From the NCBI GenBank assembly GCA_902779075.1, contig CACZAK010000152.1, positions 1-21,639 on the forward strand: a DNA stretch of 21,639 bases, read 5' to 3'. The notes beneath the pieces are model-generated. The model worked only from the letters and a program-made list of their open reading frames with translations, searched no databases and was not told where the DNA came from. How positions within the stretch are numbered: the first letter of the stretch is position 1; each line of letters starts with the position of its first letter. Positions 2,905 to 20,600 of this stretch are shown here, in pieces. The translations under genes and the position numbers were made by a program. The stretch comes from an uncultured bacterium. Its GTDB lineage: Bacteria; Verrucomicrobiota; Kiritimatiellia; RFP12; UBA1067.

Positions 2905-3277
2905 GCGTGCCAAAGACAAAACATGCGCACATACGCCATCCATAAAACCGCATATAACCGCGCTGAAACGGCGCGGATTGGCAATTACCCCCCCCCCTCA
3001 TGGCCTGACGGCACTGGAGAATCTTGCCAATGTGGAATTGTTGCCAGTAATCAATACCCAATACCAATCTACCTACGCCAAGGCTACAGCGGATATATTG
3101 GGTACTGGCAACATTGGGAATTGGCAACATTTTCACATTTCCACATTTCGACAGCCGCCCTGACGGGCATTACAGAGGCGACTTGCCGCGCACCGTGCGC
3201 GACGAGCCGCCTTGCGCTTAACAAACCAAAAACAAATCTTCAAACCGCCAGTAAGGGCGGGCAAATAAGGAAAAGCC
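2905..3277. other. Intergenic leader region without a recognisable gene
   Basis: I see no credible coding sequence here. It holds a hairpin CCGCGC/GCGCGG at 2958-2976, a run of ten C at 2988-2997, a long imperfect inverted repeat (3024-3127, listed separately), a palindromic stretch CGCGCAC/GTGCGCG at 3187-3201 and a hairpin CCGCC/GGCGG at 3245-3260. The last sits immediately before the ribosome binding site AAGGA (3267-3271) that serves the ATG at 3278. The region looks like accumulated repeat elements separating a regulated promoter from gene A. Confidence 0.5.
3024..3127. repeat. Long imperfect inverted repeat (REP/MITE-like)
   Basis: The left arm contains TTGCCAAT (3024-3031) and TTGCCAGTA plus CCCAATA (3041-3063, with a 7-nt insertion). 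The right arm contains TATTGGGTACTGGCAA (3096-3111) and ATTGGCAA (3120-3127). The inner 16 bp pair perfectly apart from the bulge. The loop carries CTACGCCAAGGCTACAGCGG, which resembles a short palindromic repeat I know from many uncultured-bacterium genomes. No transposase is attached. Confidence 0.55.
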
Positions 3278-3346
3278 ATGACAACAGGAAAAGCACTCAA
3301 TGGAAAGCCGTATGCGGGAAATCCGCACGTACGGTTTGACGAGGGG
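3272..3346 (+). repeat. Group II intron domain V-like leader, copy 1
   Basis: These 75 nt are identical to 17622-17696. Bases 3305-3312 (AAGCCGTA) pair with 3330-3337 (TACGGTTT), including the G-U pair of the AGC triad. Bases 3313-3317 (TGCGG) pair with 3323-3327 (CCGCA) around a GAAAT loop, and CG at 3328-3329 is the 3' bulge. This is the layout of group II intron domain V (8-bp stem, 2-nt bulge, 5-bp stem, GAAA-type loop) at 33 nt, one shorter than the usual 34. The following GAGGGGGAAGTCGCATCGGC resembles the start of a domain VI/intron 3' end. Its own ATG (3278) opens a frame containing GKPYAGNPHVRFDEG. No other intron domains or maturase are seen. Confidence 0.75.
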
Positions 3347-6300
3347 GAAGTCGCATCGGCGGCAATGCCGGACAATACAGTTCAAAAAAGCGAAGTGCTC
3401 GCTCATTGCGGCGCTTGCGTTTGCCGCGACGGCGACGTTCGCCGCCGCGCCCGACGCCCTGATACACCGCTGGAGCTTCAACAACAGCCTTGAAGATACC
3501 GGCTCGATCGGCGGCAAGACCGCAGTGCTCGGCGGCAACGCCGCGCTGTACGGCGAAACCTCCGTGCGCGTGCAAAGAGGCGGCGACCCCGTGGAACTCG
3601 GCGCGAACCCGATTCCCTCCGACCTCGGCGACACGCCGTTCACCATCGAGGTGTGGGCCACGCCGACGACGCTGGACACTTATCGCGGCATGTTCTCCCT
3701 CGGCGAGCGCAGCAACACCAGCGCCAAGGGCTTGATGGGCGTGTTCCAGGGCTACAGGCAGATCAATTATACAGGCGGATCTGGCGGGGATAACGGTCCG
3801 GTCTGGCATGCCGTCGCCGGCACGGTCAACGGCGGCACGGGGAAAAACGTCGCCATGACGCCGGGCGGCATTTCCGCCAACACGCCATACTACTTCGCCT
3901 ACGTCGTGACGCCGACGGGCGACGGTAGCGCCACGGTCGCCGGCTACGTCTATAACGTCTCTACCGGCGCGCAGGTCGGCAAGAGCGTCGCGTGGACGGT
4001 GGAGAGCTGGACGACGTCGCAGTTGGCGCAATCCTGGTTCGGCCTCGGCACGACGCCATGGAACGACGCCTGCCCCGGCGCGGACTACGACGAAGTGCGC
4101 GTCTGGAAGAAGGCGCTCACGCCCGCCGATGTCGCTGCGAACGTCAAAGTCGGCCCCGACGCAATTCCCGGCGACGGCGACTATCCCACTCTCGGCGTCT
4201 CCGAAGCCAACCTCGCGCACCGCTGGAGCTTCAACGGCTCGCTTGTGGATTCCGTCACCGAAGACGTCGCGACGATGCAGGGCGCGAGCTACACCGCCGA
4301 CGGCGTCCGCTTTGCCGGCGGCAGCAAGGCCGACAACTACGTCTCCCTCGGCGCGAACAAGATGCCGTCCGACAACGTGACGCTCGAATTCTTCTCCACG
4401 ACGCGCACTCTCGGCTGGCCGAAGATGTTCTGCCTCGGCAACGGCGGTTCCGAAACGGACGGCATCAGCTTCTCGTACGCCCGCGGCGACGGAACCGGCT
4501 TGTCGGGCATCGAGATATACGGCACGAACGGCGGCCATTGGATAGGCAGAATAACGAACGCCCTCGAGGCGAACAAGCCGTACCATTTCATCTTCACCTT
4601 CTCTTGCGATGGAACCGACACCGTCGTAAGCGGCTATTGCATCGACCTGACGAATCCCGGCACGATCAGAGGCCAGTTCACCGAGACGCTCAGCGGCTGG
4701 AGGATGACCGAGAGCATTTCGCTCGACACGTTCAACCTCGGCTGGTCGTTCTGGGGCGACAGCGCTCCGAACGCCGACTTCGACGAGGTGCGCGTGTGGG
4801 ACGGCGTCCTTTCCGCCACCGAAATCCTCGCCAGCGCGGCGGCCGGCGCCGACGCCATCATTACGAAGGAGTCCGATCCGAACGTCGTTCTTTTCGAGTA
4901 CGATTTCTCCGGCGGCGCCAACAACTTCAGCGGCATCGTGGCCGATCCCGTCGTGAACGACGCCTCCTATCTGGCCGTCCACGGCACGAACGGATACGGC
5001 ACCGCCGTCCACCCTGCGGGCTACGGCCCGATCGCGCTCGGCGAACAGTACCTCAACGAGGACTGGACGCTCGCGATGTCCGTCAAGTCGTGCGACGTCG
5101 AGAACGGCATCCTCCTCGCCCTCGGCGGCAATGGCTTCACGTCCAACGGCCGCGAACTGCGCATTCTTTCCTCTTCCACGCCCGGCAAGCTGAGCGCCGT
5201 CATCGCGCAGACGTGGGACGTGAACTACGAATTCGGCCAGAACACGCCGGGAGGCTCGAACATCGAGCTGACGGATCTCGGCGACACGACCGGCGCGTTC
5301 CACACGCTCGTCGCCGTCCATACCAAGGACGACGCGAAGATCAAGCTGTATTGGGACGGCGTGTACAAGGGCGAGTTCAATTCGCTTTCCAACATGGGCG
5401 CGGACAAGGTGTTCCGTTCCAACCTCCAGTTCGGCGGTTCGTTGAACAACACCATTGCATCGCACGTCTCCACCGCCTCGAACCTCGACGCCGCTTTCCA
5501 GAACGTGACGTTCTACATGAAGGCGCTCGACGGCGACGCGATTTCTGAATACGCGACGAAGTTCCCGTCCGCGGCGGCGACGACCACGTCCATCGACGGA
5601 CAGTTCTTCGGCTACGGATTCACGACGGGCGAGAAGGTGTACAGCGGCACGATCGAAGACCCTGTCACGGTTGCGGCCGGCTACACCGCCGTCAATGGCG
5701 CGAACGGCTACGGAACGGCGGTCCACGCCTGCGGCTACGGCATCGACAACAACGACATCAAGACGGCTCTCGCCGGCGAATGGTCGCTCGCGATGTCCTT
5801 CAAGTCGTGCAACATCGAGAAGGGCGCGATTATCTCGCTCGGCAACATTCCCGCAAACGGCACGAAGCAGCTGGCGATCCTTTCGTCCAGCACCGAGGGC
5901 AGGCTTTACGCCGCCGTCGTCCAGCGCTGGGGCGGCACCACTGCGATAAACCGGTCTCTCGATGACCAGACGATTGCCGTGGGCGGCGCCGACTTCACGA
6001 AGGAGTTCCACACGCTCGTCGTCACCCACGTGCCGACGGACGCGACGCACACCGGCGTCTTGACGGTCTACGTGGATGGCGTCCAGGTGCATCAGTTCAC
6101 TATCGGCGGCGGCATCCGCTTCGGCGCGCTCATGGACAACGGCGGGACCACCTCCCTCCCAGCCGACATAAAGCCCACTGCCTGGTGCCCCGACGTGGCG
6201 TTCCAGGATGTGAGGCTCTACAAGAAGGCGTTCAACGCCGACGAAGCGCTCGCATACGCGCTTGCGTTCCCGGCCGTGGCGGCGGCGACGTCCGACATCG

Positions 6301-7553
6301 GCGACGTCGCTTTCCGCCACGACTTCACGGGCGGCACTCTCTCGGCGACCGGCGACGGATGGACGGACAGCGGCCTCGCTGGCACCGGAACCGCCGTGGG
6401 CGTGCCCGGCGGCGCGGCGTTCCCGTCCAAGGACGGCTACGGCACGGTCGTGGGCGGCCTCAGCCGCGACTGGACGATGGCCATGCAGTTCAGAGGGCCG
6501 GAAGTGTCGGAGGGCAAGGCCGTCATGTTCTCCTACGGCGGCGTCGAGAATGGCAACAAGAGGTCTATCTCCATATGCCGGACGGCGGAAGGCAAACTCG
6601 TCGCGCAGACCGTGCAGAACTGGGGCGGCGGCGTGAATGCGACCTCCAGCATCGAACTTGGTGACGATGCGGACAGGATCTTCCACACGCTTGTCATCGT
6701 GAATGAGCGCGACGTCAAGACCGACTACCGGTATGGGTGGGCCTCCGGAATGCAGTCGTTCTATCTTGACGGCGAGTTCGTGGGCGCGATCACCGACAAC
6801 AACGGACAGGAGCGCGCGCTGATGGACACGTTCCGCTACGGCGCGATCTACAACAGAACCTTCAACGGCATAACCGAGCCGACGGCGGGCAGCGGCCTCG
6901 CGTTCCGCGATTTGCGCTTCGCGACGAAAGTCTGGACTTCTGCGGAGGCCAAGGCTTACGCGCTCGACCGCCAGATGCCGGGCGACGACTTCCTCTTCGA
7001 CTACCGCTTCACGTCCGGCGAGAAACATTTCTACGGCAACGGATTCGCCGACCCCGTCACGGTTGCGGCTGGCTACACTCCTGTCCACGGCACGAGCGGC
7101 TACGGCACCGCCGTCCACGCGACCGGCTACGGCATAAACAATGACGACATCAAGAAGGCGCTCGCCGGGAACTGGTCGCTCGCGATGTCCTTCAAGTCGT
7201 GCGACATCGAGAAGGGCGCGATTATCTCGCTCGGCGACATTCCTGCAAACGGCACTAAGCAGCTGGCGATTCTTTCGTCCAGCACCGAGGGCAGGCTTTA
7301 TGCCGCCGTCGTCCAGCGCTGGGGCGGTACCACTGCGATAAACCGATCTTTAAACGACCAGACGATTGAGGTGAGCGGCGCCGACTTCGCGAAGAAGTTC
7401 CACACGCTCGTCGTCACCCACGTGCCGACGGACGCGACGCACACCGGCGTCTTGACGGTCTACGTGGATGGCGTCCAGGTGCATCAGTTCACTAGGCGGC
7501 ATCCGCTTCGGCGCGCTCATGGACAACGGGCGGACGACCTCGCTCCCCGGTGA
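3300..7553 (+). CDS. Giant LamG-repeat surface protein A, 5' part (frameshifted gene)
   Basis: Open for 1417 codons, but neither end is natural. The signal peptide (FKKAKCSLIAALAFAATATFAA, residues about 28-49) aligns with that of paralogue B. The ATG at 3300 has no ribosome binding site; the well-placed ATG at 3278 is in another frame and would join this frame if one A were removed from the A6 run at 3384-3389. LamG/concanavalin-like modules follow: residues about 50-290 and 301-521 (HRWSFN type), 528-760, 769-994, 1002-1226 and 1231 onward (YDF/RHDF type, with NGYGTAVH). At nt 7494 a 5-nt deletion relative to the copy at 6099-6120 shifts the frame, adding about 20 wrong residues to the stop at 7553. 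LamG folds bind glycans or proteins; the ligand is unknown. Likely a pseudogene or phase-variable gene. Confidence 0.75.
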   Translation: MESRMREIRTYGLTRGKSHRRQCRTIQFKKAKCSLIAALAFAATATFAAAPDALIHRWSFNNSLEDTGSIGGKTAVLGGNAALYGETSVRVQRGGDPVELGANPIPSDLGDTPFTIEVWATPTTLDTYRGMFSLGERSNTSAKGLMGVFQGYRQINYTGGSGGDNGPVWHAVAGTVNGGTGKNVAMTPGGISANTPYYFAYVVTPTGDGSATVAGYVYNVSTGAQVGKSVAWTVESWTTSQLAQSWFGLGTTPWNDACPGADYDEVRVWKKALTPADVAANVKVGPDAIPGDGDYPTLGVSEANLAHRWSFNGSLVDSVTEDVATMQGASYTADGVRFAGGSKADNYVSLGANKMPSDNVTLEFFSTTRTLGWPKMFCLGNGGSETDGISFSYARGDGTGLSGIEIYGTNGGHWIGRITNALEANKPYHFIFTFSCDGTDTVVSGYCIDLTNPGTIRGQFTETLSGWRMTESISLDTFNLGWSFWGDSAPNADFDEVRVWDGVLSATEILASAAAGADAIITKESDPNVVLFEYDFSGGANNFSGIVADPVVNDASYLAVHGTNGYGTAVHPAGYGPIALGEQYLNEDWTLAMSVKSCDVENGILLALGGNGFTSNGRELRILSSSTPGKLSAVIAQTWDVNYEFGQNTPGGSNIELTDLGDTTGAFHTLVAVHTKDDAKIKLYWDGVYKGEFNSLSNMGADKVFRSNLQFGGSLNNTIASHVSTASNLDAAFQNVTFYMKALDGDAISEYATKFPSAAATTTSIDGQFFGYGFTTGEKVYSGTIEDPVTVAAGYTAVNGANGYGTAVHACGYGIDNNDIKTALAGEWSLAMSFKSCNIEKGAIISLGNIPANGTKQLAILSSSTEGRLYAAVVQRWGGTTAINRSLDDQTIAVGGADFTKEFHTLVVTHVPTDATHTGVLTVYVDGVQVHQFTIGGGIRFGALMDNGGTTSLPADIKPTAWCPDVAFQDVRLYKKAFNADEALAYALAFPAVAAATSDIGDVAFRHDFTGGTLSATGDGWTDSGLAGTGTAVGVPGGAAFPSKDGYGTVVGGLSRDWTMAMQFRGPEVSEGKAVMFSYGGVENGNKRSISICRTAEGKLVAQTVQNWGGGVNATSSIELGDDADRIFHTLVIVNERDVKTDYRYGWASGMQSFYLDGEFVGAITDNNGQERALMDTFRYGAIYNRTFNGITEPTAGSGLAFRDLRFATKVWTSAEAKAYALDRQMPGDDFLFDYRFTSGEKHFYGNGFADPVTVAAGYTPVHGTSGYGTAVHATGYGINNDDIKKALAGNWSLAMSFKSCDIEKGAIISLGDIPANGTKQLAILSSSTEGRLYAAVVQRWGGTTAINRSLNDQTIEVSGADFAKKFHTLVVTHVPTDATHTGVLTVYVDGVQVHQFTRRHPLRRAHGQRADDLAPR
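5664..6102 (+). repeat. LamG module repeat R1
   Basis: This 439-bp stretch encodes VTVAAGYTAV to VDGVQVHQFT. It is nearly identical at DNA level to R2 (7056-7494) within the same gene and to R3 (11756-12190) in gene B. It keeps the intact TATCGGCGGCGGC sequence that R2 has lost. Confidence 0.8.
7056..7494 (+). repeat. LamG module repeat R2
   Basis: Same length (439 bp) as R1 and nearly identical, including silent positions. It ends at ACTA (7491-7494), directly followed by GGCGGCATCC where R1 has TCGGCGGCGGCATCC. The 5-nt difference is the frameshift of gene A. Confidence 0.8.
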
Positions 7554-8511
7554 CATCAAGTCCACGGCCTATTGCCCAGACACGGCGTTCCAGGACGTGA
7601 GGTTCTTCACGAAGGTCCTTTCCGCCGACGAGATCGCGGCGTATGCGGCCATGTTCCCGGCGGCGGCGGCGACGAAGAGCAATATTGACGACTACGGCTT
7701 CCGCCACGACTTCTCGTCCGGCAAGCTCGTCCGCACGGGCGATAGCTGGATCGACGGCGACGGCGAGGGCGCGAACGGCATCGTCGGCACGGGAACGAGC
7801 GTGCCCGGCCCGAAGGTCGAAGGGAAGATCACCAAGGCCGCGTTCCCGTCCAAGGACGGCTACGGTTCGGTCGACGGCGGCCTCAACCGCGACTGGACGC
7901 TCGCGATGAGCGTGAAGGCCCCGGCCGTCGTCGGCAGCGAGAAAGGCATCGTGCTCGCAATCGGCGGCGTGGATGTCGATCCGTGGACAGCCGCTGTAAA
8001 GGCTCTCGTGCTCAGCTCCGATGCGAACGGCGGCCTTTATGCGAAAATCGTGCAGCGTTGGGGATCTGGCGAGGACGCCGTCAATGACGTCGGCAGCATT
8101 GCTTCGCTGACAATCGCTTCCGACAATCTTGGAGGCGGGACGACGAACGGCTTCCACACTCTCGTGGTCGTGAACGAGAGGGACGTCAAGACCGACGAGC
8201 AGTGGACTACGAGCTGGAAGAGCGGAATGGTTTCCTTCTACTGGGACGGCGTGTACAAGGGTTCGCTTACCGGAGTGGATGGACAGGGGCCGACCTTTAC
8301 CCCGACCATGCGCTACGGTGCGATCTACAACAGGACGTACACGGGAAGCTCGAATTTCGTGGAATCGTCGAACAAGGACAGCGGCCTTGCGTTCTACGAC
8401 CTGCGCTTCATCCCGCAGGTGTGGACGAGCGCGGAGGCGGCGGACTACGCGGCGGCGTTTCCTGCGGCGGAGCAGTCCAAGGCGTGCGGAATCGCCATCC
8501 TCCTGAGGTAG
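7468..8511 (+). CDS. LamG-repeat surface protein A, 3' part after the frameshift
   Basis: This frame continues protein A. Real homology starts at about nt 7495 (GGIRFGALMDNGRTTSLP), completing the sixth LamG module, and a seventh runs about 7693-8470 (YGFRHDFSSGKLV to FIPQVWTSAEAADYAAAFP). The first residues before 7495 are an out-of-frame reading of the upstream module, so the ATG at 7468 is not a natural start and no ribosome binding site supports it. The C-terminus is KACGIAILLR, matching the tail shared by proteins B, C and D (basic at -10, Gly at -7, hydrophobic at the end). Without the 5-nt loss, A would be one polypeptide of roughly 1740 residues ending at 8511. Confidence 0.75.
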   Translation: MASRCISSLGGIRFGALMDNGRTTSLPGDIKSTAYCPDTAFQDVRFFTKVLSADEIAAYAAMFPAAAATKSNIDDYGFRHDFSSGKLVRTGDSWIDGDGEGANGIVGTGTSVPGPKVEGKITKAAFPSKDGYGSVDGGLNRDWTLAMSVKAPAVVGSEKGIVLAIGGVDVDPWTAAVKALVLSSDANGGLYAKIVQRWGSGEDAVNDVGSIASLTIASDNLGGGTTNGFHTLVVVNERDVKTDEQWTTSWKSGMVSFYWDGVYKGSLTGVDGQGPTFTPTMRYGAIYNRTYTGSSNFVESSNKDSGLAFYDLRFIPQVWTSAEAADYAAAFPAAEQSKACGIAILLR

Positions 8512-8594: not shown

Positions 8595-8637
8595 AATACG
8601 GATCGATTAAATCCAACCACTTTCTAACCACATAAAT

Positions 8638-8641
8638 GGAG
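8638..8641 (+). promoter_or_regulatory. Ribosome binding site deciding the start of gene B
   Basis: GGAG at 8638-8641 lies 9 nt before the ATG at 8651. It overlaps the first codons of an alternative in-frame ATG at 8636, which has no such site upstream. This favours 8651, giving a compact signal peptide. Confidence 0.65.
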
Positions 8642-8650
8642 AAAAAACGA

Positions 8651-11600
8651 ATGAAATCAATAATGCTACATAAAGCGAAGCGCTGGCTTGGCGCGGCGCT
8701 TGCGTTTGCCGTGACGGCGTCGTTCGCCGCCACGCCAGACGCGCTGATACACCGCTGGAGCTTCAACAACAGCCTTGAAGACACCGGCTCGATCGGCGGC
8801 ATGACCGCCACGCTCGGCGGCAACGCCGCGCTGTACAACAAAACCACCGTCCGCGTGAACGCCGGCGGCAACGGCACGAGCTGGGTGGAGCTTGGCGCGA
8901 ACCCGATTCCCTCCAGCCTCGGCGACACGCCGTTCACCATCGAGGTGTGGGCCACGCCGAGGGAAATCCGAAACTACGCCTCCGTGTTCTCCCTCGGCGA
9001 GCGAAGCAATTCCTCGGCCAAGGGCCTGATGGGCGTGTTCCACGGCTACAGGCAGGTCAAGCACGACGACAGCGGGGCAAGCGGATGGGGAAGCCCGGTC
9101 TGGCAAGCGCTCGGCGGCACGGTCGGCAGCGGCACGGGCAACAACATCGGCATGGCGCAGAGCGGCATTTCCACCGGCACGCCGTACTACTTCGCCTACG
9201 TCGTGACGCCGAAGGGCGACTCCTCCGCCACGATCATCGGCTACGTTTACAACGCCTCCACCGGTGCGCTGGTGGGCAAGAGCGGGATGTACACGGCGAC
9301 GAACTGGACGACGGCGGATATGGTCCAGTCAACTTTCAACCTCGGCACTACGCCTTGGAACAATGACAACCCCGGCGCGGACTACGACGAAGTGCGCGTG
9401 TGGAAGACTGCCCTCACGCCCGGCCAGGTCGCGGCGCACGTCGCGCACGGCCCTGATGCGATTCCAGGCGACGGCAGCGTATCCGACGGGCGCCTCCGCA
9501 CGGAGTCCGCAACCCTCGCGCACCGCTGGAGCTTCAACGGCTCGCTCGCCGATTCGGTCACCGGCGACACCGCGACGATGAAGGGCGGGTACTACGCCGC
9601 CAACGGCGCCGTCCGCTTCGCCGGCGGCAACAAAGGCGACTATGAAATCGCTCTCGGCGCGGACATGCCGTCCGACAGCGTGACGCTCGAATTCTTCTCC
9701 ACGACGCGCAGTCTTGGATGGCAGAAGCTGTTCTGCCTCGGCAACGGTCAAACCGACGGTATCAGCTTCTCGTTCCAGCGCGGCAGCAACCCCGCCGCCG
9801 GCGTATCGGGCCTCGAAATCTACGACAAGAATAATAGCGGCCATTATGTGGACGGCATCCCGAACGCCCTTGAATCGGACAAGCCGTACCTTTTCACTTT
9901 CACCTTCTCCTGCGACGGAACCGACACCGTCTTGAACGGCTATTGCATCGACCTGGCGAATCCCGGCGTGATCAGGGGCCAGTTCTCCCGGACGCTCGCC
10001 GGCTGGAAGCTGACGGAAAAGATCACGCTCAACACGTTCAACCTCGGCTGGTCGTTCTGGGGCGACGGCGCTCCGAACGCGGACTTCGACGAAGTGCGCG
10101 TGTGGAACGGCGTCCTCTCCGAGGCCGAAGTCCTCAAGAGCGCGGCGGCCGGCGCCGACGCGACGATCAACCCCTCGTTCCCCGAAGCGCCCGAAGATCT
10201 GATACACCGCTGGAGCTTCAACGGCAACCTCGAGGACTCCGGTTCGATCGGCCTCAACACCGCGACGATCAAAGGCAACGCCGGGCTGCTGAACGGCAAC
10301 TCCGTGCACGTGAACAACGGCGGCAACGGCACGAGCTGGGTGGAGCTTGGCGGCAACCCGATTCCGTCCAGCCTTGGCGACACGCCGTTCACCATCGAGG
10401 TGTGGGCCACGCTGAATTCGAGGCAAGACTACGCCTCCGTGTTCTCCCTCGGCGAGCGCGGAACCGGCGGGGATCCCACGGTCAAGGGCCTGATGGGTGT
10501 GTTCCACGGCTTCAGGCAGGTTAGAGAAAGCGGGGACGCGCAATGGGGCGCGTGTATGCAGCCGCTCTGCGGCTCGATGTCGAACGTCGCCATGACGCAG
10601 GGCGAACTTTCCAACGGCACGGCGTACTACTTCGCCTACGTCGTGACGCCGCAGGGCAACGGCTCCGCCACGCTCATGGGCTACGTGTACAACGCCTACA
10701 CCGGCGCGCTGGTGGGCCAGAGCGTGATGCGCACGGTGACCGGCTGGACGACGGAGCAGCTTGTCCAGTCCACGTTCAACCTCGGCACGACGTGCTGGAA
10801 CAACAACAACCCCGGCGCGGACTACGACGAAGTGCGCGTGTGGAAGAAGGCGCTCACGGCCGACCAGGTTGCGGTGAGCGTCCGGTGCGGCCCGGACGTG
10901 GTTCCCGGCGCGAGTGCGACGGTTAACCCCGTGGTCGAAGAGGGCAAACCCGCGACGCTTCTCCACCGCTGGAGCTTCAACGGCAGCCTCACGGACACCG
11001 GCGTTTACGGCGGCTCCGACGCGGTTACGTTCGGCACCGCGAAACTGGTAGATGGAACGTCCGTGGCGACGTACAAGGACGGCAGCTGGAACACTTCCTA
11101 CGTGAGCCTCGGCGCGAACATGATTCCCGCCTCCCTTGGCAACACGCCGTTTACCGTCGAAATGTGGGCCACGCCGCGCGACCTGCAAACCTACCTCCCG
11201 ACGTTCACGCTCGGCAAGCCGGACGACAGTGGCAGTTCAAACAAGGCATTGATGTTCGTGTTCCACGGCGTCGGGCAGATCAGGCCGGGTAGCAATACAT
11301 CGCCTGCGCCCGTGTTCCAGGCGCTCGGCTCGAACCAGCACGGCAACAACGTATCGATGAGCACTGCGGCGCTCACGGTCGGCACGCGCTATCATGTTTC
11401 GATCGTCGTCGAGCCGCAGGCGGGCGACACCGTGACCATCACCGGCTACGTCCATGACGACGCGGGCAATCTGGTCGGCAGCGGCGCCCAGACGGGCATC
11501 ACCGGCTGGAACGCAACCACCCTGACGCAGTATGCGTTTTATCTCGGCCGCAACCCGTGGCACGACGCCAACCCCTCCGCCGAATACGACGAAGTCCGCA

Positions 11601-14600
11601 TCTGGAGCCGCGCCTTCACGGCGAAGGAACTCGCCTTGAACGCCGTATCCGGCCCCGACACGATCCTCGACCACGACGCTCGAGGAAATTCGCCGCTTCT
11701 CGCATACGACTTCACGTCCGGCGCGAAGGCGTACAGCGGCTTTATCGACGATCCCGTCACGGTCGCGGCGGGCTACACCGCCGTCCACGGCACGAACGGA
11801 TACGGCACGGCGGTCCACGCCGCCGGCTACGGCACGAGCGATGCCATCAGGACGGCGCTCGCCGGCGAATGGTCGCTCGCGACATCCTTCAAGTCGTGCG
11901 ACATCGAGAAGGGCGTGCTGCTCTCGCTCGGCAACATTCCCGCAAACGGCACGAAGCAGCTGGCGATCCTTTCATCCAGCACCGAGGGAAGGCTTTACGC
12001 CGCCGTCGTCCAGCGTTGGGGCGGTGCCACTGCGATAAACCGGTCTCTCGACGATCAGACGATTGCGGTGAGCGGTGCCGACTTCGCGAACGAGTTCCAC
12101 ACGCTCGTCGTCACCCACGTGCCGACGGACGCGACGAACACCGGCGTCTTGACGGTCTACGTGGACGGCGTCCAGGTGCATCAGTTCACCACTGTTAACT
12201 TGGGCCAAGAACGCGCCTTCGGCAACGGCATCCGCTTCGGCGCGCTGATGGACGCCGGGCGGACGACCTCCCTCCCATCCGACATCAAGCCCACGGCCTA
12301 TTGCCCCGACACGGCGTTCCAGGACGTCCGGCTCTACGACAGGCTGCTTTCGGCGGACGAAATCGCGGCATACGCCGCCGAGTTCCCGGCGGCTGCGGCG
12401 ACGAAGGGCAGCATCGGCGACTACGGTTTCCGCCACAGCTTCTCGACAGGCAAGCTCGTCTCCGACAACGGGACGTTCGCCTCGACCGGCGGGTTTAACG
12501 ACAACGGTCTCGTCGGGACAGGCACGGCGGTGGACGCCCCGGCGTACGCGGCGGAAGGCGTGAAGGCGTGCTTCCCGGACAAGACCGGCTACGGCACGGT
12601 GACGGGCGGCCTCAACCGCGACTGGACGATCGCCATGAGCGTGAAGGGCCCGACGGTCGTCAGCGGCAACCCCGCCGCGATGTTCTCTTTCGGCGGCGTG
12701 GAGGATTCCACGAAACAATGCCGCTCGATCGCGCTCTGCAGTTCCTCCACCGGCTCGCTCTTCGTGCAGATGGTGCAGCGCTGGGGTTCGGGAAACGATG
12801 CCGTCAATGCGCCGGTGAGCCTCGACCTCGGCGGCGACACGTCGAGCATGTTCCACACTCTCGTCATCGTCAACGAGCGGAACATCAGGACGGACGAGAA
12901 CCTCAACACGCAATGGAACACCGGCATGATCTCCTTCTACCTCGACGGCGAGTACAAGGGATCGTTCACAGTCAACAACGGCCAGGAGCGCGCGTTGATG
13001 AACGCGATCCGCTACGGCGCGATCTACAACAGGACGCATGAGAGCGTCGTCGAGCCTGACGCGGCGAGCGGCCTCTCGTTCCAGGACCTGCGCTTCATTC
13101 CGCAGGTGTGGACGGGCGCGGAGGCGAAGGACTACGCGGCGGCGTTCCCCGTCGCCCCGACGGCAAACGTCACGCTCGAGGTGTCCGGCGACGACGACTT
13201 CGCCGGTTCGCAGCAGATAGCAATCACCGGCGGCGGGCAGATCTACTACACGTTGGACGGCTCCGAGCCGACGCCCGAGAACGGCACGCTCTACGCCGGC
13301 GCGTTCACGCTCGCCGGGTCGGCGCAGTTCAAGGCTCGCGCCTTCGCGGACGGCCAGCCCGTCAGCCAGACGGTCAGCAGGACGTTCACCGAGGCGACGG
13401 ACACCGCGGCGTACGACTACGTCTTCCGCTACAACTTCGTGGACGGCGTCAAGAACTACAACCACCACGGCTGCGCGACCGAGCCTGCCGGAACGGCGGC
13501 GGGCTACGCCGCGGTCCACGGCACGAACGGCTACGCCAAGGCGATCCACCCGACCGGCTACGGCACGATCGTGGACGGCATGGCGCGTCTCAACAACGAC
13601 TGGACGCTCGCGATGTGCGTGAAGCCCGGCGACCTCGAGAAGGGCATCCTGCTTTCGCTCGGCGACAACAACGCCGTCAACACGAAGGAACTTGCGATTT
13701 GCTCCTCGTCCACGGCCGGCAGGATCCACGTCGCCGTCGTGCAGAAGTGGACGACGAACACGGGCGTCGCCAACTACAAGAACCTGCCGTTCGCCTACGA
13801 CATCCCGGTGGGCGGCGACACGGCGGGCAGCTTCCATTCGCTCGTCGTCACGCACGTCGCCAACACGGCGTATGACGCCGGGACCGGCCAGGCGGTGTCG
13901 GGCGTGATTACGTTCTACTGGGACGGCGTCAACGTCGGTGGGTTCGATTCCTCCACCAACGGCGGCGAACGCGAGTTCGGCAACGGCTTCAAGTTCGGCG
14001 GCCTGCACGACGGTTCGACGTCTTGGCTCTCGCAGCAGGGCTACGTCGAGACGGCGTACGACGTCGAGAGCGCGTTCCGCGACGTGCGCTTCTACGCGAG
14101 GACGCTGACGGCGGACGAGATCGCCGGCTACGCGGCGATGTTCCCGGCGACGGACTCCACGAGCGGAAACATCGGCACGTTCGACTTCCGCCACGACTTC
14201 ACCGGCGGCTCGCTCGCCGTCACCGGCAGCGCGTTCACCGACGGCGGCATCGCCGCCGCGACGAAGGAGGCGCTCGGCCCGGTGGGCGACGATGCGGCGA
14301 AGGCCGCGTGGCCCGGAATGTCCGGCTACGGCACGATCGGCGGCGTGAACATGAACGGCGACTGGACGCTCGCCATGAGCGTGAAGGCGCCGAAGGTCAC
14401 GGACGACGAGAAGGGCATCATCGTCTCGCTCGGCGGCGTGAACGCCAAAGGCACGAAGGCCCTTGCGATTGGCTCCACGGCGGACTCCACCGGCGGGCTG
14501 TTCTTCGGCCTTGCACAGCGGTGGGGCGGCGATACCACGGCAATCAACACCTGCAACGGACAGGTCACGCTCGCCGGGCTTGGCGACACGACGAAGGAGT

Positions 14601-14971
14601 TCCATTCGCTCGTCATCGTCCACGCCTCCGGCCTTCGCACCAACAACGACTCCGGCTGGAAGACCGGCACCTACGCCATCTACTGGGATGGCGTGTACAA
14701 GGGCGCGGTTGCGACGAACGACGGAGCCGGCCAGAACATCGGCAACTTCATCAAGTACGGCTCGCTCCATGACAGGATGCCGCCGACGCCGGAAAACTGG
14801 GGCGGCAACTACCCGCACTACGTCGAGACGGATTCGTCCGAAAGCGGCCTCGCGTTCCGCGACCTGCGCTTCGCGGGCAGGATGTGGACCGGCACGGAGG
14901 TCAAGGCGTATTCGCAGGCATTCCCGGCCGTGAAGCAGAAGAGCCGCGGTATTACGGTGCTGGTGTATTGA
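8651..14971 (+). CDS. Giant LamG-repeat surface protein B
   Basis: An intact protein of 2106 residues. Residues 1-25 are a signal peptide (MKSIMLHKAKRWLGAALAFA, then VTASFAA). Eight LamG/concanavalin-like modules follow: about 27-275, 287-506, 515-757 and 767-1006 (each opening HRWSFN), 1014-1250 (YDFTSG), 1255-1500 (RHSFSTG), 1589-1833 (YNFVDG) and 1840-2094 (RHDFTGG). Between modules six and seven lies a chitobiase/hexosaminidase C-terminal-type domain (about 1505-1587; IYYTLDGSEPTPENGTLYAG). Modules 1-4 carry a YDEVRVW motif near their ends. The C-terminus KSRGITVLVY is the shared tail. Modules 1 and 5 are close copies of modules in gene A, so A and B are adjacent paralogues. LamG modules usually bind glycans or matrix proteins; the ligand is unknown. 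The peptidase gene starts 22 bp downstream, so B and C are probably co-transcribed. Confidence 0.85.
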   Translation: MKSIMLHKAKRWLGAALAFAVTASFAATPDALIHRWSFNNSLEDTGSIGGMTATLGGNAALYNKTTVRVNAGGNGTSWVELGANPIPSSLGDTPFTIEVWATPREIRNYASVFSLGERSNSSAKGLMGVFHGYRQVKHDDSGASGWGSPVWQALGGTVGSGTGNNIGMAQSGISTGTPYYFAYVVTPKGDSSATIIGYVYNASTGALVGKSGMYTATNWTTADMVQSTFNLGTTPWNNDNPGADYDEVRVWKTALTPGQVAAHVAHGPDAIPGDGSVSDGRLRTESATLAHRWSFNGSLADSVTGDTATMKGGYYAANGAVRFAGGNKGDYEIALGADMPSDSVTLEFFSTTRSLGWQKLFCLGNGQTDGISFSFQRGSNPAAGVSGLEIYDKNNSGHYVDGIPNALESDKPYLFTFTFSCDGTDTVLNGYCIDLANPGVIRGQFSRTLAGWKLTEKITLNTFNLGWSFWGDGAPNADFDEVRVWNGVLSEAEVLKSAAAGADATINPSFPEAPEDLIHRWSFNGNLEDSGSIGLNTATIKGNAGLLNGNSVHVNNGGNGTSWVELGGNPIPSSLGDTPFTIEVWATLNSRQDYASVFSLGERGTGGDPTVKGLMGVFHGFRQVRESGDAQWGACMQPLCGSMSNVAMTQGELSNGTAYYFAYVVTPQGNGSATLMGYVYNAYTGALVGQSVMRTVTGWTTEQLVQSTFNLGTTCWNNNNPGADYDEVRVWKKALTADQVAVSVRCGPDVVPGASATVNPVVEEGKPATLLHRWSFNGSLTDTGVYGGSDAVTFGTAKLVDGTSVATYKDGSWNTSYVSLGANMIPASLGNTPFTVEMWATPRDLQTYLPTFTLGKPDDSGSSNKALMFVFHGVGQIRPGSNTSPAPVFQALGSNQHGNNVSMSTAALTVGTRYHVSIVVEPQAGDTVTITGYVHDDAGNLVGSGAQTGITGWNATTLTQYAFYLGRNPWHDANPSAEYDEVRIWSRAFTAKELALNAVSGPDTILDHDARGNSPLLAYDFTSGAKAYSGFIDDPVTVAAGYTAVHGTNGYGTAVHAAGYGTSDAIRTALAGEWSLATSFKSCDIEKGVLLSLGNIPANGTKQLAILSSSTEGRLYAAVVQRWGGATAINRSLDDQTIAVSGADFANEFHTLVVTHVPTDATNTGVLTVYVDGVQVHQFTTVNLGQERAFGNGIRFGALMDAGRTTSLPSDIKPTAYCPDTAFQDVRLYDRLLSADEIAAYAAEFPAAAATKGSIGDYGFRHSFSTGKLVSDNGTFASTGGFNDNGLVGTGTAVDAPAYAAEGVKACFPDKTGYGTVTGGLNRDWTIAMSVKGPTVVSGNPAAMFSFGGVEDSTKQCRSIALCSSSTGSLFVQMVQRWGSGNDAVNAPVSLDLGGDTSSMFHTLVIVNERNIRTDENLNTQWNTGMISFYLDGEYKGSFTVNNGQERALMNAIRYGAIYNRTHESVVEPDAASGLSFQDLRFIPQVWTGAEAKDYAAAFPVAPTANVTLEVSGDDDFAGSQQIAITGGGQIYYTLDGSEPTPENGTLYAGAFTLAGSAQFKARAFADGQPVSQTVSRTFTEATDTAAYDYVFRYNFVDGVKNYNHHGCATEPAGTAAGYAAVHGTNGYAKAIHPTGYGTIVDGMARLNNDWTLAMCVKPGDLEKGILLSLGDNNAVNTKELAICSSSTAGRIHVAVVQKWTTNTGVANYKNLPFAYDIPVGGDTAGSFHSLVVTHVANTAYDAGTGQAVSGVITFYWDGVNVGGFDSSTNGGEREFGNGFKFGGLHDGSTSWLSQQGYVETAYDVESAFRDVRFYARTLTADEIAGYAAMFPATDSTSGNIGTFDFRHDFTGGSLAVTGSAFTDGGIAAATKEALGPVGDDAAKAAWPGMSGYGTIGGVNMNGDWTLAMSVKAPKVTDDEKGIIVSLGGVNAKGTKALAIGSTADSTGGLFFGLAQRWGGDTTAINTCNGQVTLAGLGDTTKEFHSLVIVHASGLRTNNDSGWKTGTYAIYWDGVYKGAVATNDGAGQNIGNFIKYGSLHDRMPPTPENWGGNYPHYVETDSSESGLAFRDLRFAGRMWTGTEVKAYSQAFPAVKQKSRGITVLVY
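11756..12190 (+). repeat. LamG module repeat R3
   Basis: Gene B counterpart of R1 and R2 in gene A, about 435 bp and highly similar at DNA level, including the long stretch encoding NIPANGTKQLAILSSSTEGR. It diverges after VHQFT, where B has a longer loop (TVNLGQERAFGNG). Confidence 0.75.
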
Positions 14972-14993: not shown

Positions 14994-17501
14994 ATGAAAA
15001 TGACAAAGAAGATTGCATTCGCTGCCGTTGGTTCGGCGCTGGCCTTTCCGCTTCTCGCGGCGGAGGTGTCCGGCGACGATGCGAAGACCGCCGTCGCCGG
15101 ATGGGTGAACCTGAAGGCCGCCGTGGGCGAGGATTTCGCCGCCAAACCGTCGAGCGTGAGGGAGTACCAAGGCAAGGACGGGAAGGGCAAGTATTACGTG
15201 GTGGAGCTGGAGGGCGGCGGTTTCGTCGTCACCTCTGGCGACACGGAGATCAACCCCGTCCTCGCCTATTCCAAGGAAGGAACGTGGGTCGACGACGTGA
15301 AGCGGAATCCGCTTCTCGCGATGCTGCCGCTCGACGTGGCTGCGGCGACCGAGGCCGCAATGATGGCCGAGCTGAGCTCGGCCAACTCGGCCGTTAACTC
15401 TGGCGGCAAGCGGCTTGCGGCGGGAGGGTCGTCGTCCTCGACGACCGCATCCGCCAACGCTTCGTTGTGGAGCACGTTCAAGTCGGCCGGTGCCGCCAAC
15501 GGCGGCCGCCGGCTGAGCGCGACCGCGACCGACAACCAGATTAAAGCCGATCTGCGCGTCGGGAAGCTCTTGACGACGACGTGGAATCAAGGCACTTACA
15601 CGGAAAATCTGTACATACCGCACCATTGGCCCTGCGGCTGCGTCGCCACCGCTGGCGCGCAGATCATGAAGTTCTGGAATTGGCCGAAGAACACGTCGGC
15701 GCTCACGCCGGTGCTTACGTTCCGCGGAACGGTTGGAAGCTCGGGTGACTGGACTTTGACAAAAGGCTGGCGGGATTCGTCGAGCGGTTCTTACACGCAG
15801 TGGAGCCCTGCGTTCGGCGGCCCGTACAACTGGAGTGCCATGACGGATTATCCGAGTAACGGCGGGACGGACGCATATGCGGTGAGCCAACTGACCCGCG
15901 ACGTGGGCCTCGCCTGCCACATGGATTACGCCAGTGACGGCAGCGGAGCGCAGACTTCGACGCTCTTCAGGCGCTTCACCGACCAGTTCGGATACGCGAA
16001 CGCCGCCTACGCCAGCAATCTCTCGGACAACGACGCCGATCAAAGCAGCTGGAAACGGGCGATGCTCGCGAGTTTCAACGCGGGTCTTCCCTGCGGCGTC
16101 AGCGTGCCGGGCCACGCCATCGTGGCGGACGGCTACGGCTATTACGGCGACGAGCTCTACGTCCACTTCAATCTCGGTTGGGGCGGAACGAGTGACGCGT
16201 GGTATTCGAGCCCGTTGACGGACGGTGTAAAGGATGGCACTTCAAACACTGCGGGTTTCACCACGCTCAACGCAATCATCTACAATATCTATCCGCAGGG
16301 GCCGGCCGGCGCCACCATCGTCAGCGGACGCGTCCTCGACACGGCGGGCTCTCCGGTCAAGACGGGCAACAAGACCATCGTGGCGAAGAACACGTCCGAC
16401 GGCACGACGTACACCGCCGTTTCGACGAACTCGATCTACGCGCTCATCCTTCCTCCGGGCACCTACGACATCGGCTACGAATACAGCGCAGGCACTGTGT
16501 TCTTCACGAACATGTTTGTAGATGCATGCGTCAATTTGAGCCTTGTCAACAACAACAATGACGTGGAGAAGCAGATTGACGCCGAGAGGAGCGGCTCGTA
16601 CTTCCCGAACACCGGCGCGATCCGCAACATCTACGACATGGATCTGAAGCCTGTCGCGATAACGGCGCCGACGTATTCGACGACGTGGGGTACGAAGTTC
16701 TACACCGCGTCGGCGAAGGTCGTGCTTTCGACCGCGACCGAAAGCGCCAAGATCTACTACACGACGGACGGCAGCGAGCCGACAGTTGCCAGCACGCTCT
16801 ACGCCGGGCCGATCTCGCTGACGGCGACGACCACCATCAAGGCCAAGGCGTTCTTCGGCGAATTCTACTCCAGCGACACGATGACGGCCTCGTTCACCAA
16901 GGGCGATTATGCAGCTGAATATCGTTCCACTAAGGACGGCCTGGCCGCCCACTGGGTCGACGAGCGCGAGGCGACGCACAACGTCACCGGTTCGTGGACG
17001 ACGGAGAAGGCGTTCGCCGGCGGATGGTTCGCCGTGGACGGTTTCAACGACTTCACTCCTTCGACCCGCTCGAAGGGCAAGAAGGTAACTGTGATGGCTA
17101 CTGTCTCCACGGTCGGAACCTACGGCGTCGATACCGATACGTACCAGGGCGTCAGGGCCGCCGTGAGAATCTGCAAGGTCAACGGCTCGCTTGCGTTCCA
17201 GGTCTACACGAGCGACGCCAACGGCGCGAAGTGGGTTGCGGCGACCGGCGCGACGCCGGCGGCTGAAACTGAATACGACGTGAAGGTGGTGCTGGACACC
17301 TCTGCCATGACTTACGAGGCGTTTGTCGCGACGGCTGGCGGAACCGAGGCGCAGCTGACGTCCGGCGGAAGCGGCACGTTCCCGTTCGCCACACGCGCGA
17401 AGGGCGCGGTTACGAAAATCGCGCTCGACGGCGACGGCGCGGTTTCGGCGGTGGAAGGCTCCTACATTCGCTCCAAGGGCGTTCTGCTCATCGTGCAGTA
17501 G
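14994..17501 (+). CDS. Secreted C10-family cysteine peptidase (streptopain-like), multidomain
   Basis: 835 residues; AAGGAG at 14981-14986 fixes the ATG. Residues 1-22 form a signal peptide (KKIAFAAVGSALAFPLLAA). Residues about 25-175 form a propeptide with the C10 pattern YYVVELEGGGFVVTSGDTE and PVLAYSKEG. The catalytic domain, about 185-430, begins LLTTTWNQGTYTENLYIP. The expected nucleophile is Cys216 in CGCVATAGAQIMKFW and the catalytic His is His374 in GHAIVADGYG, followed by HFNLGWGG (Asn393, Trp396). Beyond it lie a carboxypeptidase-regulatory-like beta domain (about 440-560; IVSGRVLDTAGSPV, LPPGTYDIGYE), a chitobiase C-terminal-type domain (about 565-640; IYYTTDGSEPTVASTLYAG) and a LamG-like domain (about 645-820). 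The tail RSKGVLLIVQ matches A, B and D. It probably cleaves proteins outside the cell; target unknown. Related to SpeB, with a much longer C-terminus. Confidence 0.9.
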   Translation: MKMTKKIAFAAVGSALAFPLLAAEVSGDDAKTAVAGWVNLKAAVGEDFAAKPSSVREYQGKDGKGKYYVVELEGGGFVVTSGDTEINPVLAYSKEGTWVDDVKRNPLLAMLPLDVAAATEAAMMAELSSANSAVNSGGKRLAAGGSSSSTTASANASLWSTFKSAGAANGGRRLSATATDNQIKADLRVGKLLTTTWNQGTYTENLYIPHHWPCGCVATAGAQIMKFWNWPKNTSALTPVLTFRGTVGSSGDWTLTKGWRDSSSGSYTQWSPAFGGPYNWSAMTDYPSNGGTDAYAVSQLTRDVGLACHMDYASDGSGAQTSTLFRRFTDQFGYANAAYASNLSDNDADQSSWKRAMLASFNAGLPCGVSVPGHAIVADGYGYYGDELYVHFNLGWGGTSDAWYSSPLTDGVKDGTSNTAGFTTLNAIIYNIYPQGPAGATIVSGRVLDTAGSPVKTGNKTIVAKNTSDGTTYTAVSTNSIYALILPPGTYDIGYEYSAGTVFFTNMFVDACVNLSLVNNNNDVEKQIDAERSGSYFPNTGAIRNIYDMDLKPVAITAPTYSTTWGTKFYTASAKVVLSTATESAKIYYTTDGSEPTVASTLYAGPISLTATTTIKAKAFFGEFYSSDTMTASFTKGDYAAEYRSTKDGLAAHWVDEREATHNVTGSWTTEKAFAGGWFAVDGFNDFTPSTRSKGKKVTVMATVSTVGTYGVDTDTYQGVRAAVRICKVNGSLAFQVYTSDANGAKWVAATGATPAAETEYDVKVVLDTSAMTYEAFVATAGGTEAQLTSGGSGTFPFATRAKGAVTKIALDGDGAVSAVEGSYIRSKGVLLIVQ

Positions 17502-17571: not shown

Positions 17572-17594
17572 TTGACAGGAAAAAATCGTATAAT
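17572..17594 (+). promoter_or_regulatory. Candidate promoter of gene D
   Basis: TATAAT at 17589-17594 is a perfect -10 box 33 bp before the ATG at 17628. TTGACA at 17572-17577 is a perfect -35 box, but only 11 bp separate them, far below the usual 17, so the -35 may be fortuitous. A ribosome binding site, AAAGGAAG (17614-17621), follows. Confidence 0.45.
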
Positions 17595-17621
17595 AAACGT
17601 TCAACAGCCCAAGAAAGGAAG

Positions 17622-17696
17622 AAAGCCATGACAACAGGAAAAGCACTCAATGGAAAGCCGTATGCGGGAAATCCGCACGTACGGTTTGACGAGGGG
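17622..17696 (+). repeat. Group II intron domain V-like leader, copy 2
   Basis: Identical over 75 nt to 3272-3346. The domain V-like fold covers 17655-17687: AAGCCGTA (17655-17662) with TACGGTTT (17680-17687), TGCGG with CCGCA around GAAAT, and a CG bulge. Here it is in frame with the downstream gene: the ATG at 17628 starts protein D, so the hairpin encodes residues 10-20 (KPYAGNPHVRF). The match ends at GAGGGG, where the gene-specific sequence encoding the signal peptide begins. Confidence 0.75.
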
Positions 17697-20600
17697 ATCC
17701 GCGCCGCGATTGCGGCAATCTGCGTGGCGGCGTCATTGACGTCGTTTGCTGCGGACAGGACAATCAGCGCGGACTACGCGCTGACCGCAGATGAAACGGT
17801 CGACGGCGTCCTGACCGTCGACTCCGGCGCGACGGTCGATCTCGCCGGACACAACCTCACCGTGAAGGGCCTCGCGGGCGGCGGCACGATAACATCCGGC
17901 AAGTATTCGCTCGACACGTCCATCGCCGTGCCGGAAATCGTGAGCGGCGAATCCATCTTCTGGCTCGACGCCTCCGCATCGGACACGCTGACGGTCGACG
18001 GCAATGGTCTTGTCACAGGATGGGCGTCACGTAGAGGATCGAACTCCGCGAAGTATATAACAAGCGGCATGACGGCTCCGACCTTCGACGACACCACATA
18101 CGGCATACCCACCGTGGACTTCGGCGCCGCCGGCAGCAAGAAAGACCTGGCCTTCGACGCCCTGGGAAACATCAGAACCGTATTTCTCGTGACGAAAATC
18201 CAGAAGACGCAGAACGCCTTCTGGCTGGCGGCTCCCAACCTCGGACAGGTATATCCTTTCCACCGCGGCGACAACGGAACATACGCCGCAACGTATTCCA
18301 ACATTGCAAAAACGTGGAACGGCACGATGCAGGCGAACATGACGACCGAAGCACCGGACGACACGTCCTTCATCGTCGTGGCGATTGAAGCGAACAGCAA
18401 TTCCACGGCAAACTCGCTCACGAACGACCGCAACATCGGCGGACGGAACGGCGGCAAGCAGCTTTCAGAACTCATTTGCTTCAGCCGCGTGCTGACGGAC
18501 GCCGAGCGTGTCGCCGTGACGGAATATCTCCAGAAGAAGTGGACCGTCCCCGCAGAACTGCGCGTGCAGACGTCCGGCAGCGCAGAAAACAGCACCGTGG
18601 CTCTTACTGGCAATGTGAAGCTCATCGTGGAAGGCGGCGGCACGTTCACGGCGTCTAAGGCCAGCCAGACCTACACCGGGGGAACGGAAGTATCAGGCAG
18701 CGGGACGACGCTCGTCGCCGGCACGGCCACGCATCCGTTCGGCAACGGCGGCGCCGCGCAGACCGTCACGGTCGGAGAAGGCGCGACCGTCAATCTCGGC
18801 ACGTGCGCGAACGGAGGCACGTGCGTTTACAACTACAATCTCGGCGGAAGCCTGGTGTGCGGCTACGAGAGCGGCAGAGGCACGCGAAGGTTCAATTTCA
18901 TCAACGTCATTTCCGACAGCGCGTCTCTCAGCATAAACCACAGCCTGATAGGCGGCACGGCGGACAACAGCATGGGCAGACTGCAGCTCAACGGTCACGT
19001 GTTCTCCATTTCCACGCAGAACGAGCCGCTGATGAAATACATCACGGCCCTCGACTACGGCACGATCAAGTTCACAGGCGGCTACGAACAGTTCTACCAG
19101 AACTGCGACCTGACCAAAGCGAGGGTGTGGTTCGCTGGGAGTTCGTGGATTCATCTCGCGGACTACGGCTTCAACGCGAAAGACCTCCGCTGCGACGTGG
19201 CGCAATGGCGCGTGTTCGGCAACGGCGTAAACAGGGACGCCCAGCCCAAAATCTCTGGCAGATACGAAGCGGGTGCGAACCGTCCGCCGCTTACGCTTCT
19301 GAGCGGCGCCACGCTCGACATCTCGGGTGTGTCCGGAACGTGGAGCGCGAACGGTCGCGCGCTTTCGGCCGCGGGAAGCAACGTCAACTACACCGAGCCG
19401 GGTCTTGTGACGTTTCTTGCGGCGAATGCGTCGTACACGATAGACATCGGCGCGCGCGAAGTCGCCGCCGGCGACAAGCTCGTGGCGTTTCCCTCTTCGT
19501 ATTCGCCTGGCGACACGGTAACATTCACGGCCACCGCCACCGGTGCCGCGCAGACGCTGGAAGAGCGCAATCTCGCGCTCAAGGTCAAGTCAGGCGACGG
19601 CATATACCTGAGGAGCACGGAAGTTCCATACGCTCGCTGGTGCATAGACGCCGCGACGCCCGCCAACTCCGGCTGGAAATTCTACGACGTGAAGACAAAC
19701 GCCGAGCGCACGGACTGGGAAGACGGAATCACGGACGACGTGGAAGTTCGGTTCTCGTCTTACGCCGAATGGACGGCGATACAGGCGCAGAGCGTGACTC
19801 CGCTACGCTATGTCATGGACGGGGCGGTGACGGCCGAAGGCTTCGACGGTACATGGGCCATTGCGAACGTCTCCGTGGCAGAAGGCACCACGCTCGACCT
19901 GAACGGACGCTGCGTTTCCTTGACGGGGCTTGGCGGAATGGCCACAGTCACCGACTCCACGAACGATGCGGAGCATCCCGGCGAGCTGCACATCGTGGTG
20001 TCCGGCACGCTCTCCAACGCCGACACGGCCATGACAGGCAACATGAAGCTCGTCATTGAAGGCGGCGGCACGTTCACGGCGGCCAAGGCCGGGCAGTCCT
20101 ACACCGGCGGCACGGAAGTCGCGGCGGGCATGACCCTCGCCCTCGGCACTGCGACGCATCCGCTAGGCGACGGCAACGCCTCGCAGACTGTGACGCTGGG
20201 GGCGGGCGCCGTTTTCAGCGCCGGTACGTATGCGAACAGCACGACGTGCGCATACAGTTTCACGCTCGGCGCAGGCAGCAGCCTTGTGTTTGGAAGTGCA
20301 GACCGCGCCACCCGCCGGTTCGCCGACTTGACGTTGCTTGGCGATGCAAGCCTGACCATGCAGGGGACGAGCGGCCCGATGGGGCTCTCGTCGCGGTACA
20401 GCACCATAACGCTCAACAACAACAAACTCTCCATGTCCCTCGGTAGCAATTCGTTCATCGGGCACATAAAGACGCTCGACTCCGGCACGATTCGGTTTGC
20501 GAAGAGCGAAGGTCACGGAACACAGGCGCAGGGCGCCGAGACCGACTTCCGCACCGCCGATGTGGAAGTCGCCAGCCAGGCGTACATCCACCTCGGCAAC

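Follow-up and report, generated by a model that had tools for sequence, protein, structure and literature searches.

Why should a hairpin with the layout of group II intron domain V stand at the head of two unrelated genes? The question is raised by the window (the whole stretch of DNA that was analysed, 21,639 nt), in which positions 3272-3346 (copy 1) and 17622-17696 (copy 2) are identical over 75 nt. The identity extends no further on either side, exactly as claimed in the original prediction, and by base composition the expected number of pairs of this kind is about 1.6e-35. Each copy contains a 33-nt domain V fold (3305-3337 and 17655-17687, respectively, both on the plus strand) with the AGC triad and its G-U pair, a 2-nt 3' bulge and a GAAA-type loop. 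The predicted layout was confirmed by the folding energy (-17 kcal/mol; shuffle mean -7.41, sd 2.22, z = -4.32) and by an Rfam search of the window, in which RF00029 matched 3303-3412 (43.4 bits, E 1.1e-5) and 17653-17828 (43.3 bits, E 1.2e-5), both above the gathering score of 40. The domain VI portion of both alignments contains long insertions and is unconvincing; comparison with copies of relatives showed that copy 1 has lost half of domain VI and copy 2 all of it. The window gave no match at E <= 1 to any further Rfam family, including those for D1-D4, no RT-like sequence was found upstream of the copies (tblastn), and intron homology was absent beyond 38 nt (copy 1) and 88 nt (copy 2) upstream of domain V. 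Lacking domains I-IV, RT and a complete domain VI, the copies are intron fragments, not introns: both are remnants of a group II intron's 3' end, and the intron family occurs in rumen and gut Kiritimatiellae and their kin.

A domain V that precedes a gene might also be the upstream half of a circularly permuted intron, with D5-D6 before the exon and D1-D4 after it. In PMC8637638, circularly permuted group II RNAs are described as carrying domains five and six at the 5' end, and in this respect the window copies are like these ribozymes; unlike them, they have no D1-D4 after the exon (none in the window at E <= 1). Among 17 loci of relatives scanned, D1-D4 directly followed D5 only in L118, where one intron lies inside another. 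A circularly permuted intron, for which no downstream D1-D4 was found in the window, was therefore rejected and is barely conceivable. Cis splicing of the kind known from Clostridium tetani C.te.I1 was likewise rejected, there being no intron body upstream and no D1-D4 in the window.

The genes behind the two copies are unrelated, as had been noted: Laminin_G_3 repeats follow copy 1, and the product of the gene behind copy 2 has no Pfam match. The ATGs at 3278 and 17628 had both been proposed as gene starts, which holds for copy 2, in frame with its gene, but not for copy 1. In the latter, intron homology begins at about a Shine-Dalgarno-like AAGGAA (3267-3272, plus strand), the alignment to the intron reference starting 39 nt before the domain V core, and the promoter region of the intron is therefore absent. 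The leader frame (3278-3493, plus strand) runs from the ATG at 3278 for 71 codons to a stop, out of frame with the laminin-G gene, whose frame is 3300-7553 (plus strand). Comparison with the copies of relatives places the 5' part of domain VI at 3340-3370 (plus strand); the 3' part, and with it the 3' splice site, is gone. Copy 1 has most likely decayed. The region 3300-8511 contains the laminin-G gene split into two overlapping frames near 7468-7553, and because of this second frame break (near 7480-7553 in the frame 3300-7553) the gene itself has probably decayed (or the sequence contains errors). An intact Laminin_G_3 paralogue without the leader is located at 8636-14971.

Copy 2 retains more of the intron. 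It is preceded by intron-derived promoter-like boxes, TTGACA (17572-17577) and TATAAT (17589-17594, both on the plus strand), which recur between the RT stop and the ATG in introns of relatives and are here separated by 11 nt only. This spacer (17578-17588) is an A/G tract that varies between about 11 and 17 nt among copies, as in phase-variable promoters. A Shine-Dalgarno sequence, AAGAAAGGA (17611-17619, plus strand), lies 8 nt ahead of the ATG, and the leader, MTTGKALNGKPYAGNPHVRFDEG (17628-17696, plus strand), comprises 23 codons with domain V inside. Directly behind the shared sequence domain VI has been deleted in frame, and the leader is fused to a hydrophobic, signal-peptide-like segment, IRAAIAAICVAASLTSFAA (17697-17753, plus strand). 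The whole gene (17628-21047, plus strand) encodes a repeat-rich protein of 1139 aa, presumably a surface protein; its one NCBIfam match is far below the cut-off and outside the leader, which itself belongs to no Pfam or NCBIfam family. An empty-site comparison is provided by the orthologue in G001 (C63, L251), the genome nearest to the window among those compared (27% of sampled 31-mers). This orthologue shares 87% identity over query residues 7-370, begins with MNMKKLTMVVAICAAAFAPSWA, and has its own Shine-Dalgarno sequence and no leader. Copy 2 is most likely a working leader fusion.

The cassette is widespread among relatives. An exact 46-nt pattern gave 56 stretches and 60 matches in genome contigs, in records titled Kiritimatiellae, Lentisphaerae/Lentisphaeria, Verrucomicrobia or "uncultured bacterium", several of which name goat, sheep, cattle, deer or yak gut sites. 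A viral carrier was rejected, as this one exact pattern gave no stretch in viral contigs. RF00029 matches were found in 32 of 59 relatives, with up to 19 per genome, and a 131-nt cassette matched 24 of 40. Of 387 genomes drawn across the phylum (two candidates scored per genome), 10 carried the cassette: nine belong to the family of G001 and one, G048, to another family of the same order, where it may be a contamination.

Whether a complete intron with a matching domain V exists had been left as a point to check; in relatives, introns occur that encode an RT and carry a domain V of this kind. The intron of L120 (G002:C319) is complete, with group-II-D1D4-6, an RT with RVT_1 and GIIM, and D5-D6; that of L116 (G006:C7) has the same parts, but its 5' end is cut by the contig end. 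The TIGR04416 RT/maturase model scored 363.1 bits in L120 and 373.6 bits in L117 (cut-off 300), the D1-D4 model RF02005 scored 66.0 (L118), 62.8 (L120) and 57.3 bits (L116), and RF00029 scored above its gathering threshold in L116, in L120 and elsewhere; in type A introns D1-D4 was not matched at the gathering score. The order of parts is GTGCG, D1-D4, RT/maturase, promoter-like boxes, Shine-Dalgarno sequence, ATG, domain V, and domain VI ending in CTCTAC. The stretch from the RT stop to domain V contains TTGACA, a spacer rich in A/G, TATAAT (TATACT in L120), the Shine-Dalgarno sequence and the ATG, and the frame of this ATG is open through domains V and VI to CTCTACTCTAC and on into the 3' exon. 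The 5' end, GTGCGCCAAGC, immediately follows an ATG. In their matches to TIGR04416, PF08388, RF02005 and RF00029, and in the GTGCG found at their 5' junctions, which agrees with 5' GUGYG, these elements are like mobile bacterial group II introns; they differ from them in lying directly behind start codons.

This siting, like the in-frame reading of domains V-VI, was missed by the original prediction. Intron 5' ends, identified with one mismatch allowed and a second intron motif required, were found in 33 distinct places in the loci examined, 29 of which follow an ATG. Two of the other four follow ATGTG (L122 and L145) and two follow neither (L110 and L172, from genomes of other families of the order). 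A looser 5'-end pattern gave 58 places, again 29 behind an ATG, the rest being mostly chance matches. With three twintron sites and one near-duplicate excluded, 25 distinct gene-start sites remain; 23 of these show an SD-like motif between -15 and -3, compared with 810 of 6962 ATGs tested in the loci examined. The 5' exons have the ATG and a purine-rich SD-like run in common and little else; no single conserved homing sequence was found there. Introns also lie inside introns: in L118, L170, L179, L181, L185 and L190 the 5' end of a second intron lies behind an ATG near nucleotide 36 of the first, and in the twintrons of L118, L181 and L190 a type A intron sits inside type B, behind the ATG at nucleotides 34-36.

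Exon recognition may be read from domain I, where a loop, GTCATGATAG, occurs in L045 and L176. In L122, whose exon ends in ATGTG, the equivalent stretch identified by eye is GTCACATTGC, a single covarying case that is suggestive of a candidate EBS1 reading AUG. In L116 a TCCT-containing loop lies ahead of the candidate EBS1, and EBS2 was considered as an anti-Shine-Dalgarno sequence, though the spacing between Shine-Dalgarno sequence and ATG varies (about 6-10 nt by eye).

The cassette blast gave 167 matches, 121 of them distinct. The leader start is present in 71 of the 121 (66 ATG and 5 GTG); the remaining 50, many of them cut by contig ends, were excluded. In all 44 copies aligned from the start to the 3' splice site, leader length is divisible by three (114 nt in 39 copies, 111 nt in three, 144 and 108 nt in one each), and in 42 of these the frame stays open for 60 codons or more, or until the contig ends, L124 (stop 33 codons on) and L192 (contig end) being the exceptions. 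The distance from TTGACAG to the start, measured in 27 copies, falls into all three length classes (11/11/5). The frame from the leader start is open for at least 150 codons in 60 of 66 evaluable copies, compared with 1 of 69 for frame +1 and 0 of 71 for frame +2; the failures are L124, L199, L226, L237, L247 and window copy 1. This frame retention is partly ascertainment, since gene-killing copies would be lost.

The copies might still be neutral intron debris upstream of genes whose true starts lie elsewhere. The frame is, after all, broken in 6 of 66 copies, including copy 1 of the window, and the leader peptide bears no sign of conservation: changes at the three codon positions number 88/74/100 in 15 diverged copies, and selection on the leader peptide as such was rejected. 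Against dead debris stand the 60 of 66 copies open in the leader frame only, the 44 of 44 lengths divisible by three, the junction at codon 2 with the native ATG displaced, and the 109 of 120 listed carriers in which the leader goes straight into a hydrophobic segment. We consider this alternative improbable. In 14 diverged copies domain V has accumulated changes about half as fast as its flanks (0.099 vs. 0.219 and 0.199), a pattern expected of copies that underwent most of their divergence as active introns. A leader that is open and in phase was found also in related subtypes (L131, which is type A, L120, G035, G019 and G033), which suggests that it is a property of the intron clade. Three exceptions were noted among five type A introns: L122 has its leader out of phase, in L119 a stop follows after about 28 codons, and L118 leads into another intron. 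The more distant introns of G022, G009 and G045 do not show such a leader.

Most copies have lost the intron body. There are 104 distinct copies, 35 with less than 1 kb upstream and 69 that were evaluated. DNA comparison found no intron body in 59, a partial one in 2 and the RT region in 8; since L126 has a diverged RT upstream by tblastn and represents a distant intron, body-less copies number 58 of 69. The cassette is thus not confined to the 3' ends of full introns; such confinement had been named beforehand as what would speak against the original prediction. In three of the 58 the last 30 or so RT codons survive, and the other 55 have no RT-like sequence; an intron 5' piece is retained in four, e.g., the internally deleted L052 and L097. 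The 3' end of the relics is mostly exact and the 5' end variable, which may reflect either 5'-truncated insertion or later deletion. Domain VI has been lost in some copies of relatives as well, and one copy each in L064 and L091 lacks the leader ATG and is joined in frame to an upstream ORF. Three orthologue pairs passed the filter for dating of the cassette, with gene identities of 94.2, 97.7 and 100% and leader identities of 102, 107 and 113 of 114 positions.

Two further features of these copies were observed. At the tip of domain VI, L045, L046, L052, L073, L074, L090, L092, L093 and others carry in-frame extra sequence (encoding SCTAEASLRR) that leaves the leader frame intact and seems to be a further short repeat element. 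Near-identical non-intron sequence lies upstream of cassettes with different genes downstream (in L042, L046, L053 and L073, and in L049 and L089), which hints at cassette recombination, duplication or misassembly.

Body-less copies could also act as 3' half-introns, joined in trans by the D1-D4 and maturase of intact introns to a common or a separate 5' exon. A precedent exists in C. tetani C.te.I1, a 5.1-kb locus in which four D5/6 motifs share one upstream D1-D4 and are spliced; the authors of PMC3919590 describe the extra D5/6 before S-layer ORFs as alternative sites of 3' splicing and regard trans-splicing as a possibility. Trans-splicing would also fit the domain VI and CTCTAC end kept in many copies of relatives and the intact introns present in some of them, but conservation of the frame over D5-D6 would be needless if D5-D6 were spliced out. 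Moreover, a complete domain VI is missing from both window copies, G001, G003, G008 and G016 carry 13, 9, 10 and 11 cassette matches, respectively (a single copy may account for two), and no GIIM match, and G008 and G016 contain no intron 5' end (these assemblies being incomplete). Trans-splicing is accordingly considered improbable. Given the same loss of domain VI and absence of GIIM matches, no support was found for the trans recognition of a mobile 5' cassette, by a maturase or by introns still present, that had been suggested as possible. The idea of the cassette itself is largely supported: an intron 3' end has spread that supplies genes with a ribosome binding site and start codon, often with promoter-like boxes.

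The genes that received it were examined through a leader-only search limited to proteins of about 280-890 aa, in which 370 of 381 candidates matched at E <= 1e-3. Among the 120 carriers listed out of the 370, Pfam domains are present in 76, and the first family given for each adds up to 45 different ones. A hydrophobic 9-mer occurs within 35 residues past the leader in 109 of the 120, compared with 195 of 2400 random segments and 44 of 111 SD+ATG starts belonging to other ORFs of the loci examined; these counts reflect hydropathy and are not signal-peptide predictions. The notion that all carriers encode exported proteins therefore holds for most, given their signal-peptide-like segment, but not for all, as P0077, P0096 and P0117 look cytosolic (ferredoxin, sugar kinase and dehydrogenase). 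P0001 has tandem leaders, one lying immediately after the other's start codon, and P0068 and P0110 seem to be fused to pieces of the intron 5' end. Tryptic peptides of the leader are ALNGKPYAGNPHVR and FDEGEVASAATPR.

Taken as a whole, the window copies are very probably relics of start-codon-sited introns whose tails become gene starts. The intact intron would insert directly behind the start codon of a gene, and splicing would restore the AUG joined to codon 2. The unspliced transcript could also be translated, because the frame of the intron ATG is open in phase with codon 2: reading through domains V-VI without stops would add about 38 residues. Once the intron body is lost, cis splicing is no longer available and the relic would therefore become the start of the gene. 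That relics persist mostly ahead of signal peptides is probably due to signal peptidase, which would cleave off leader and signal peptide together. A more far-reaching reading, which we put forward tentatively and with more doubt than confidence, is that the introns read translation starts, a candidate EBS1 with CAU pairing to AUG, and possess a do-no-harm 3' end, in which promoter, Shine-Dalgarno sequence, AUG and domains V-VI doubling as coding sequence are in phase with codon 2; in rumen and gut Kiritimatiellae the relics might then have placed hundreds of proteins, most of them exported, under a single shared and possibly phase-variable expression cassette, forming a ribozyme-built regulon.

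C.te.I1 comes closest as a precedent for D5/6 ahead of genes for surface proteins: there, too, D5/6 precede several surface-protein ORFs with annotated start codons inside D5/6 (PMC3919590). Unlike C.te.I1, the copies described here are dispersed and mostly body-less, and have their own Shine-Dalgarno sequence and ATG with a frame running through D5-D6 into the gene. The F3 introns of Thermosynechococcus elongatus use one conserved site in another intron, not the start codons of many unrelated genes (PMC2882425). Three target specificities of bacterial group II introns are named in a review (PMC4424553), and in a term search the main text of a survey of prokaryote group II introns (PMC8919778) contained no Verrucomicrobi-, Kiritimatiell- or Lentisphaer-. 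In the open-access papers searched, nothing was recognised, from titles, abstract openings and passages, as start-codon-targeting group II introns or as this leader, the string of which was absent from them. Within that literature the target preference of this group II intron family is unreported, and its 3' end is translatable. The finding would extend the target classes of such introns to start codons and would show catalytic ribozyme domains under a second, coding constraint. It offers a route by which a mobile intron may enter start codons without killing genes, its remains turning into permanent gene starts; in hundreds of database proteins the N-terminal leader would be intron sequence, and AUG-reading introns are possible tools for insertion at start codons.

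Two neighbouring genes of the window were also noted: a C10-family peptidase gene with the inhibitor-like domain Inhibitor_I69 (14994-17501), and, on the minus strand (1586-2767), a regulator gene whose product combines a periplasmic-binding-protein-like domain with an AraC-type HTH.
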